DNA from: Candidatus Woesearchaeota archaeon
Lineage (GTDB): Archaea; Nanobdellota; Nanobdellia; Woesearchaeales; JAGVYU01
Direction of reading: 5' to 3'
Length of the DNA stretch: 40,862 bases
Assembly: GCA_018303105.1 (NCBI GenBank)
Contig: JAGVYU010000001.1
Span: 1-40,862, forward strand
The position numbers and the translations under genes are program-made. Position 1 is the first letter of the stretch, and each line of letters begins with the position of its first letter. This document shows positions 8,667-31,451 of the stretch, piece by piece. A model generated the notes under the pieces. It was not told the origin of the DNA and searched no databases. It saw only the letters and a program-made list of their open reading frames with translations.

Positions 8667-8733
8667 TGGGTGACCACAAAACAACGAAAATGTAGTCACC
8701 TCTAACCGTAAAGCTTAAATATGTAGTCACCCA
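8667..8733. repeat. 67-bp direct repeat, copy 1 (upstream of fic)
   Basis: tgggtgaccacaaaacaacgaaaatgtagtcacctct...atgtagtcaccca; 36/37 identity to copy 2 over the first 37 bp, same spacing to second gtagtcaccc. Confidence 0.9.
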
Positions 8734-8743
8734 TATAAGGAAT

Positions 8744-9688
8744 ATGCACATTGAAAAAAGGAAAGTCAATGGAAAACTGAAGTACTTTCTCGCCCATTCC
8801 TACCGCGAGGGATCGAAGGTTCACAAAATCAGAAAGTATCTCGGAAATAAAATATCCGATGAAAGAATAAAGATCGCTGAAAAGCTCATTCTTGAAGAGA
8901 TACACAAATACACAATCATTAACGACCCCCTTCACATGGCGCTTTCGAAGGAAGAAATAGACTCCATACGAAAACTTGAAGCAAAAATCCCGTTAAAAAT
9001 CAGCCATCTCTCACAACAAGATTGGAGGACATTCTCAGAACTATTTACATATAACACAAACGCCATAGAAGGAAGCAAACTCACTCAAGAAGAAGTAAAA
9101 AATCTTCTAGAGAAGGATAAGTGGCCGGAGAAGTCAAAAGAGGATATTGCGGAAGCATTGGGTGTTGATGAAGCGATCGCGTATATCCGCAGAACGAAAG
9201 AGCATCTTTCTATCGAACTCATAAAGAAGATACATCACATCGTTTTCAGGAATTCCAAACCCTTTGCAGGAAAACTGAGGAAGAAAGGAGAGGATGTCGT
9301 TGTGCTCGATAGTAAAGGCAATGTTGTTCATGAGGGCGCGCCCCAGGAGAGACTCAATCACCTCTTGCGCGAGCTCGTGGATTGGTATACCAAGAACAAA
9401 AGTAAATATCCGGGGCTGATCCTTGGAGCGGTCGTGCATAACCAATTTGAAAATATTCACCCTTTCCGCGACGGGAACGGCAGAGTGGGGAGAATCATTC
9501 TAAATAACACCCTTTTGAAACACGGCCTCCCTCCCTTGAACATAGACTTCAAGAACCGTATGGAATACTACGCATCATTACAAGCATATGAAAAGGCCCA
9601 TGATCTAAAACCGACAATAAATCTCTATATGAAAGAATATAATGAACTGAAGACAAAGCTGGGTGACCACAAAACAACGAAAACGTAG
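8744..9688 (+). CDS. Fic/DOC domain protein (AMPylator-like)
   Basis: HPFRDGNGRVGRIILNNTLLKHG catalytic FIC motif; FTYNTNAIEGSKLT. Confidence 0.95.
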   Translation: MHIEKRKVNGKLKYFLAHSYREGSKVHKIRKYLGNKISDERIKIAEKLILEEIHKYTIINDPLHMALSKEEIDSIRKLEAKIPLKISHLSQQDWRTFSELFTYNTNAIEGSKLTQEEVKNLLEKDKWPEKSKEDIAEALGVDEAIAYIRRTKEHLSIELIKKIHHIVFRNSKPFAGKLRKKGEDVVVLDSKGNVVHEGAPQERLNHLLRELVDWYTKNKSKYPGLILGAVVHNQFENIHPFRDGNGRVGRIILNNTLLKHGLPPLNIDFKNRMEYYASLQAYEKAHDLKPTINLYMKEYNELKTKLGDHKTTKT

Positions 9689-9726
9689 TCACCTCTTCCA
9701 AATAAGCGTTAAAATGTAGTCACCCA
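9660..9726. repeat. 67-bp direct repeat, copy 2 (overlaps 3' end of fic)
   Basis: tgggtgaccacaaaacaacgaaaacgtagtcacctct...atgtagtcaccca; supplies the C-terminal codons GDHKTTKT*. Confidence 0.9.
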
Positions 9727-16456: not shown

Positions 16457-16529
16457 GCCCCCGTAGCATAGTAGCCATTGCGGCTGCTTCGTAAGCAGCA
16501 GGTCGAGGGTGCAATTCCCTCCGGGGGCT
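16457..16529 (+). tRNA. tRNA-Thr (anticodon CGT)
   Basis: Acceptor gcccccg/cgggggc, anticodon arm gctgc-ttcgtaa-gcagc, T arm gaggg-tgcaatt-ccctc, D arm gca...tgc; upstream promoter-like sequence. Confidence 0.93.
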
Positions 16530-16701
16530 TCGAGTGAAACGAGAAGCCACAGGAGGTTCAGAAACCGAAGTTTCTGTTATCTCCGGGGGCTGTGAGTTTA
16601 CGAACAGCCAACGGGGCTCAAAAACACAGTTTTTGTTGTCTCCGGGCTTACGAAATGAGCAATTTGAGGCTCCGAACGCTGGTGAGGAAGTCTCCCGGGC
16701 T
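16519..16701 (+). repeat. Degenerate tandem array of the tRNA 3' end (ctccgggggct) with interspersed hairpins, ~60-nt period
   Basis: ctccgggggct at 16519 and 16581, ctccgggct at 16640, ctcccgggct at 16692; hairpins ggcttc..gaagcc, cagaaac-cgaa-gtttctg, ggctgt..acagcc, caaaaac-acag-tttttg. Confidence 0.7.
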
Positions 16702-16703
16702 TT

Positions 16704-17447
16704 TTATTTTCCCGCCGCACCAACTTCAATAATCTCCGGAACCGCTAGGGTTTCTCCCTTTATCTCTGGCGTCACTACTTCCTCCTTATGATACAACTCC
16801 TCAATTCGCTTATCTAAATATTCTACCTCCTTCCAAGGCAACCCTCTCCAGTTCCAGTCAACCATTGTAATAATCCCGGCGAGCGGTCCTGTTACCCCCG
16901 CAGTGATACCCGGCCACTGAAGGTCCAATGTCAATCCGAAGTGCAGCTCCCGTGTGAGCGCGTAGTCCATGACGTGCACGATGCCGAGCATCATGGCATA
17001 CATTACCCCCCCAGCCAATACCGCCGTGGTTATAAAATTATCTGGATAATAGACGCTTCTTGTTTTGAGCTGTCTTGGATAGCGAACTAATTCTCCTAGG
17101 AAATCCACTTGCTCATTATGCTGTTCATCATAGTGTTTTGGAGTAAATCTCCTCCACCCACGATTCACTCCTTGAAGCGATCGCAATCGTTCAGTAAGAC
17201 TCATGTTTCCTGAAATTGCTTCTCTAAGGAGCGGATTATCTAGGTATGATGAAACAAGGACGCGATGCCCTACGTCCACATTAATACACGGCAGTTCCAG
17301 CGCACGAGGCGGCTCATATCCGGGCACATGGCGGAAGCGTTCAAACTGATATGGCAAACCCCGAGCTTCTATTTCTAACAACGCTGCTTGCCTCTCGACA
17401 ACGCGCATTTGCTCGTATAATGTACCATCCATGGCAGCGAGAACCAA
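16704..17447 (-). CDS. Hypothetical membrane-associated protein (247 aa)
   Basis: Hydrophobic segments FITTAVLAGGVMYAMMLGIVHVMDYAL and GITAGVTGPLAGIITMV. Confidence 0.55.
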   Translation of the reverse strand: MVLAAMDGTLYEQMRVVERQAALLEIEARGLPYQFERFRHVPGYEPPRALELPCINVDVGHRVLVSSYLDNPLLREAISGNMSLTERLRSLQGVNRGWRRFTPKHYDEQHNEQVDFLGELVRYPRQLKTRSVYYPDNFITTAVLAGGVMYAMMLGIVHVMDYALTRELHFGLTLDLQWPGITAGVTGPLAGIITMVDWNWRGLPWKEVEYLDKRIEELYHKEEVVTPEIKGETLAVPEIIEVGAAGK

Positions 17448-30807: not shown

Positions 30808-31451
30808 AAGTACTCTCTCTCGGGGGATCGTTAATCGTTCCGGAATCTATTGATACTGAGTATCTCATCCAATTTAAGGAGTTCGTGCTCAGGCACGTGG
30901 ATCAGGGAGAAAAGTTTGTCATCATCTGCGGGGGTGGAAAAGTCTGCAGGAATTATTATGCTGCGCTTAACATCATCACGCTGAGCTCGTTCGCATTCTG
31001 TTTGGTGATGCAGCGCATCCCGTTGTCCAGCCGGATTATACAAAGAAGACTCCGTTTGAAAGCATTCTGATCGGATGCGGACTAAAACCGGGGACGAGTA
31101 CAGACTATGATGCCATACAGTACGCGATTACGTGTGGGGCAGATGCCGTGTTGAATCTTTCAAATATCAGTTTTGTGTATGACAAGGATCCAACGCACCA
31201 CAAGGACGCGAAGCCATATGAGCGGTTGACGTGGAGTGAGTTCAGGTCCATGTTCAGCGCCGAGTGGAAGGCAGGAACAAATGTTCCGTTTGACCCGGTG
31301 GAAGGCAGGAACAAATGTTCCGTTTGACCCGATAGCCTCCGAGCTCGCTCATCGCCACGGCATTAAAGTCATGATTCTGCATGGGCGTGATTTGGAGAAT
31401 GTCGAGAAAGCGCTGCAAGGCCTCCCCTTTAAAGGCACGCTGATATCCTAA
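30804..31451 (+). pseudogene. pyrH: UMP kinase (archaeal PyrH), frame-disrupted twice
   Basis: MKVLSLGGSLIVPESIDTEYL..VIICGGGKVCRNYYAALNIIT // AELVRILFGDAAHPVVQPDYTKKTPFESILIGCGLKPGTSTDYDAIQYAITCGADAVLNLSNISFVYDKDP..SMFSAEWKAGTNVPFDP // IASELAHRHGIKVMILHGRDLENVEKALQGLPFKGTLIS*. Confidence 0.85.
31264..31331. repeat. Perfect 34-bp tandem duplication inside pyrH
   Basis: gtggaaggcaggaacaaatgttccgtttgacccg at 31264-31297 and 31298-31331. Confidence 0.97.

Follow-up and report, generated by a model that had tools for sequence, protein, structure and literature searches.

Serial palindromic units and copies of the host tRNA 3' end behind tRNA genes of an archaeon

The window, meaning the whole stretch of DNA analysed (40.9 kb), comes from an archaeon with a draft genome of 1.3 Mb in 72 contigs. 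It contains a tRNA-Thr(CGT) gene whose last 11 nt, CTCCGGGGGCT (16519-16529), are reiterated downstream, with a further exact copy at 16581-16591 and then two degenerate copies, CTCCGGGCT and CTCCCGGGCT. The initial annotation had reported that the tRNA 3' end recurs at 16519, 16581, 16640 and 16692 with a period of about 60 nt, which was confirmed from the sequence, the measured period being 62, 59 and 52 nt. The hairpins that it named are also present, at the four positions listed below, and the hairpin arms differ between units and are altered on both sides. Without the tail copy, the units are 43-51 nt long. The two exact CTCCGGGGGCT matches were the only ones in the 40.9-kb window, where the same sequence with up to two mismatches occurred 17 times, 5.7 being expected. 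Only 2 nt separate the end of the array from the stop codon of a convergent gene. Its parts are the following.

16457..16529, + strand: tRNA-Thr(CGT) gene (ARAGORN; Rfam RF00005, 62.2 bits)
16530..16591, + strand: unit 1, class A (from the sequence; related units in the same genome and in genome G111)
16526-16548, + strand: unit 1, hairpin GGCTTC..GAAGCC with a tandem G.A core, its 5' arm being the tRNA tail
16545-16555, + strand: unit 1, inverted tail AGCCACAGGAG (from the sequence)
16559-16576, + strand: unit 1, hairpin CAGAAAC-CGAA-GTTTCTG (from the sequence)
16581-16591, + strand: unit 1, exact tail copy (from the sequence)
16592..16648, + strand: unit 2, class A (from the sequence; covaries with unit 1 and its relatives)
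16588-16609, + strand: unit 2, hairpin GGCTGT..ACAGCC, its 5' arm lying in the preceding tail copy
16606-16616, + strand: unit 2, inverted tail (from the sequence)
16619-16635, + strand: unit 2, hairpin CAAAAAC-ACA-GTTTTTG (from the sequence)
16640-16648, + strand: unit 2, degenerate tail copy CTCCGGGCT (from the sequence)
16649..16701, + strand: unit 3, class A' (match near tRNA-Thr(TGT) on contig C2)
16666-16695, + strand: unit 3, core GAGGCTCCGAACGCTGGTGAGGAAGTCTCC, a second sub-family distinct from units 1 and 2
16692-16701, + strand: unit 3, degenerate tail copy CTCCCGGGCT (from the sequence)
16704..17447, - strand: convergent protein-coding gene bounding the array (ORF list)

The 193-nt array stretch folded 3.2 sd better than shuffles, none of 200 shuffles being equal. 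When the array was searched against Rfam at the gathering score, only the tRNA matched; at a loose threshold, HgcF and other matches appeared and were attributed to chance, and an RNase P or H/ACA RNA, suggested by a GAGGAAGTC motif, found no support. The match of unit 3 on contig C2 is 84% identical across 43 nt, and more tail-like copies lie there beyond two small ORFs. A 14-mer of unit 3, GTGAGGAAGTCTCC, occurs three times in the genome, and exact-pattern scans for this unit in genome and viral collections gave no match. Elsewhere in the window, a MITE-like 67-nt repeat that starts with TGGGTGAC and ends with GTCACCCA was seen at 8667-8733 and 9660-9726 (85% identical copies, 993 nt apart), and at 31264-31331 there is an exact tandem duplication of 34 nt with the palindrome GGAACAAATGTTCC.

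Other tRNAs and related genomes also have units similar to those of tRNA-Thr(CGT). In the genome of the window, those behind the Thr, Gly and Glu tRNAs follow a common layout, namely the tail, a small hairpin, the inverted tail, a hairpin, TTRT and the tail copy. The small hairpin has a tandem G.A core and the tail itself as its 5' arm, the inverted tail is imperfect, and the second hairpin is of the type GGYTCARAAAC-nnn-GTTTYTG. This class A, to which units 1 and 2 belong, was also found at tRNA-Glu and tRNA-Thr(GGT) in G111, where a unit of the unit 3 type (class A') stands at tRNA-Asn. The class B element, which has two hairpins and a bulged C, was found in G111 behind the tRNAs for Ala, Arg, Leu, Met, Pro and Asp. 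Thus, one unit family stands behind different tRNAs, every time with the matching tail of that tRNA, and the palindromic unit families are common to several taxonomic families. Some G111 arrays consist of near-identical tandem units (three at Met, two at Leu). Complementarity between tail and inverted tail was significant over all units (P ~5e-5) and clear in a minority, so that despite this overall significance a universal inverted tail resembling the R''/R' of attC is not general.

The initial annotation had claimed that the arms change in a compensatory manner that preserves pairing. Covariation bore this out, being above both shuffles and controls slid along the sequence. Eight class B units had 28 two-sided changes against 8.8 after shuffling (reached in 0 of 500 shuffles) and 2-5 in the slid controls, with 99.4% of cells paired, and eight class A units had 8 against 2.8 (0 of 500), the slid controls giving 0-4; these shuffles carry no correction for relatedness. 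An artefact of relatedness is unlikely, because the slid controls are low and the hosts have diverged.

The tail of each detected tRNA was then sought within 300 nt downstream at an identity of at least 10/12, with a permutation control. In this genome, 8 of 25 tRNAs had their own tail repeated downstream, against a permuted mean of 0.84 and a count never reached in 20,000 permutations, while no own-tail copy was found within 300 nt upstream of the same 25 tRNAs. The cases are Thr(CGT), Gly(TCC) with two units, Glu(CTC), Met, three Leu and one tRNA called Ala by ARAGORN, the 3' end of which is that of tRNA-Ser and has a 29-nt exact copy. In nearly all cases the copies end on the right at nt 73, and on the left they often begin in the T-loop (AATC). 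Four genomes from other families of the order, picked mostly for completeness apart from G034, which was picked because a tail match had already been seen, gave 4/24, 3/30, 1/13 and 4/36 tRNAs; with the 10/12 threshold, the excess was significant for three of them. The counts in two congeners of G053 were 10/36 (G111, 1.0 expected) and 2/17 (G168). Own-tail copies were therefore present in all seven genomes of the order examined; the relatives compared are no closer than the same order, and these are draft genomes with incomplete tRNA sets. A route by synteny through the neighbouring Lrp-like protein led to distant relatives only. At the tRNA-Asn of G111, two units (~109 nt) precede the downstream gene, and at the orthologue in G168, which has no array, the same gene starts 24 nt past the tRNA. 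This empty site is the only such case, and the congener that has it is fairly diverged.

To follow the class B element, we used a covariance model of its core (R1), which matched in 46 of the 288 genomes of the order, with 16 copies in G111, 10 in G053 and 8 in G168. In G111, 13 of the 16 copies are within 250 nt of a tRNA, where ~2% would be expected, and 11 of these 13 lie 3' of the tRNA in the same orientation. In this genome, for which the count covers 185 kb of stretches mostly chosen around tRNAs plus the window, all nine matches are inverted and lie at Leu or Trp tRNA 3' ends. R1 sites comprise both the 3' and the 5' ends of tRNA genes, tRNA introns and protein-gene ends. At tRNA 5' ends, the copies are accompanied by a duplicated 5' end of 14 nt (Gln) or 25 nt (Thr), one copy interrupts the tRNA-Glu gene of G234 near the anticodon, and a related element lies in the anticodon intron of a tRNA-Glu of this genome. 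Flanking direct repeats scoring at least 12 were found around 13 of 48 R1 copies, against 0.4 (maximum 4) in permutations; they are 12-32 nt long and probably arose by duplication. In the clear cases, with one exception, the intact gene is on the left of the element and the duplicate abuts its right end. Among viral contigs, the class B pattern matched once, a match that the covariance model did not confirm.

Protein genes are also affected. In G248 (L311 1474-1594), a class B element stands between secE and spt5, both named from reading the translation, and 23 nt at the start of spt5 are duplicated; a second gene-start case of R1 has a 20-nt duplication. In G200 (L309 1474-1700), a gene ending in MGFLKKIK* carries two class B units and has its last codons in triplicate at the 3' end. 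Between the proximal and the distal repeat there are five changes, all synonymous, with a chance of ~1.5e-4 if neutral. This agrees better with a gene end that was recombined or brought in by the element than with simple decay of a duplicated copy. The initial annotation had suggested a palindromic repeat family that uses tRNA tails; the family is supported, and its elements are not specific to tRNA tails, as protein-gene ends are occasionally duplicated too.

Beyond 300 nt, four own-tail matches of at least 11/12, in fact all 12/12, were found in 269 kb downstream of tRNAs, and none upstream. Segments of 0.4-1.3 kb, some with toxin-antitoxin genes, lie between tail copies. At tRNA-Glu(CTC) (L224 11324-12260, G000:C28), a gene for an MBL-fold hydrolase is found between two further tail copies, and the tRNA gene itself has an apparent D-loop insertion and the class-B-like element in its anticodon intron. 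At tRNA-Met (L222 6442-7751, G000:C8), the segment has an MNT nucleotidyltransferase gene and a frameshifted ORF on the opposite strand; the latter, without a match in a Pfam search, is called HEPN-like from its context. At the tRNA-Thr of G027, a ParE toxin gene and a small upstream ORF, its putative antitoxin, lie between tail copies, and at the tRNA-Thr of G018 the segment holds an uncharacterised ORF.

We lean towards explaining the array by non-autonomous palindromic elements that were inserted in series, each duplicating the end of its target gene. Three successive insertions of elements of ~43-51 nt (without the tail copy) would have occurred at the 3' end of tRNA-Thr(CGT), each leaving an intact tRNA gene and, past the element, another copy of the tRNA 3' end. 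The copy would most simply come from target-site duplication: staggered cuts, one near the T-loop or the 3' strand of the T-stem and the other at nt 73 or a few nt further on, would be filled in. The hairpin structure, probably as single-stranded DNA, would be recognised by a mobilising enzyme acting in trans, hence the covariation of the hairpins. Insertions at gene ends would be tolerated because the duplicate restores the gene, and since the copy in the tRNA is selected and distal copies decay, the proximal exact copy would be the youngest and the degenerate ones the oldest. Duplication of the gene end would also let one element serve many tRNAs with matching tails, and would account for the protein-gene cases and the distal decay. 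Two proposals of the initial annotation, serial integration scars at the tRNA 3' end and a palindromic family using tRNA tails, thus jointly fit the data. Against serial insertion, the duplications vary from 11 to 32 nt, which is unusual for one transposase, the near-identical tandem units of G111 could be due to slippage, the five changes in the distal repeat of G200 are synonymous only, the complement of the tail is clear in a minority of units, the empty site is a lone case, and no mobilising enzyme was found. It is also possible, if doubtful, that an undescribed integration system of this order has the tRNA as its anchor, as CRISPR uses its leader and integrons use attI: every new structured unit or gene cassette would be added beside the tRNA and the tRNA 3' end duplicated, and neither Cas1 nor an integron integrase would take part. 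The resulting arrays would resemble those of CRISPR but consist of units other than spacers.

A second explanation is conservative site-specific integration. A tyrosine recombinase would cross over in the tRNA T-loop, the attachment site of the element would restore the gene end and the distal copy would be the original, so that the small units would represent integrative elements that are miniature or have decayed, and the 0.4-1.3 kb segments gene cassettes. Copies bounded by the T-loop (AATC) and nt 73 resemble classical tRNA attachment sites, and the gene-bearing segments (Glu, Met and the Thr of G027), the synonymous-only differences in G200 and one XerA-like tyrosine recombinase in the genome point the same way. 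However, an excised element would bring along its old tail and spoil the new tRNA, yet tails always match; moreover, most units are non-coding, and the recombinase is shorter than XerA and unlinked to the arrays. The gene encoding it, which lies on contig C65 away from the arrays, is the sole PF00589 member in this genome, and no integrase lies within the units, since those of 43-170 nt encode nothing. Because conservative integration fails on the change of host tRNA, we consider it rather unlikely and prefer insertion.

The possibility of a structured RNA co-transcribed with the tRNA, raised in the initial annotation, seems improbable to us. Such an RNA, for example a trailer mimicking or competing for the acceptor and T-arm, would be kept by selection, with which agree the strong covariation, the distal copies that by eye often form a T-arm-like hairpin with an acceptor strand, the right boundary at the RNase Z site and the tRNA orientation of most units. 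But only a fraction of tRNAs have units, different families occur at orthologous tRNAs, distal copies are degenerate, the G168 orthologue has no array, and some copies are inverted or lie at protein genes or tRNA 5' ends; the data can be explained without an RNA function. Still less probable, and indeed hardly credible, is that the units are palindromes of the REP type and that the single Y1 (IS200/RAYT-like) transposase of the genome moves them. This gene (Y1_Tnp, E 7e-14, the only copy; L047 1766-2236, G000:C7) stands ~190 bp downstream of tRNA-Cys(GCA) between tandem G.A-loop hairpins like those of the units, and the order of tail, inverted tail, hairpin and tail resembles IS200/IS605 ends. 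Its assignment to the RAYT type is a weak match (26.5 bits against a cut-off of 80). Array-bearing G009 and G018 have no Y1 match, G034 and G053 have none among the matches listed, none of the 30 Y1 loci of relatives examined is near a tRNA, and IS200/IS605 insertion is not known to make duplications of 12-30 bp.

If serial insertion is the right explanation, very small elements can colonise essential tRNA genes harmlessly and accumulate in reduced genomes, and the arrays are a natural archive in which successive insertions at a fixed target can be counted. The same family, found inside two tRNA-Glu genes, is a possible source of archaeal tRNA introns, and also of small gene cassettes at tRNAs. 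The question posed is which enzyme inserts at gene ends with duplications of 11-32 nt in genomes without Cas1 and, for several of them, without Y1.

In the full text of the open-access literature, which leaves most subscription journals outside, we found no published description of such units, and comparison with known systems gave partial likenesses. Like MITEs and REP/ERIC/RPE palindromes, the units are short, non-coding, structured, dispersed, flanked by direct repeats and probably mobilised in trans (PMC10969869). Their copies are dispersed and non-coding, and flanking direct repeats are in excess (the 13 of 48 above); their palindromes are internal, and a non-exhaustive search gave no parent element. 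Unlike those types, they are concentrated at tRNA ends, form serial arrays and duplicate 11-32 nt of gene ends, and the review of MITEs and palindromic repeats does not mention tRNA (PMC10969869). As regards integrons, including archaeal ones, the arrays share cassettes split by structure-conserved palindromic sites, some with toxin-antitoxin genes (PMC9668308). They differ in that the anchor is a tRNA and not attI beside intI, and the repeat is the host tRNA tail; no attC consensus was seen by eye, and for IntI only the short XerA-like recombinase was found (73 bits to TIGR02249, cut-off 265).

Casposons insert at the 3' end of tRNA-Pro, with a T-loop motif TCAAATC, 14-15 bp duplications and a leader-proximal addition like that of CRISPR (PMC6614799). 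The duplications described here are longer and more variable, Cas1 (PF01867) is absent from seven of the eight genomes examined, and neither TIRs of casposon type nor a polymerase gene were seen. Finally, integrative elements at tRNA sites (SSV1, pNOB8-type elements, genomic islands) resemble the arrays in their direct repeat of the tRNA 3' end, intact tRNA and possible tandem integration. SSV1 has a 44-bp tRNA-Arg repeat, integrations of 9-23 kb leave tRNA fragments, and the known elements are kilobases long and carry or carried an integrase (PMC3293823, PMC9897764). Around the inserts described here there is likewise a direct repeat of the tRNA 3' end, with no cognate integrase inside, while the units are 43-170 nt long, occupy as many as roughly a third of a genome's tRNAs and include one family that stands behind many different tRNAs. 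That the pattern recurs at many other tRNA genes and in related archaea suggests that a family of tiny mobile elements, not described so far, inserts at gene ends and leaves the genes whole.
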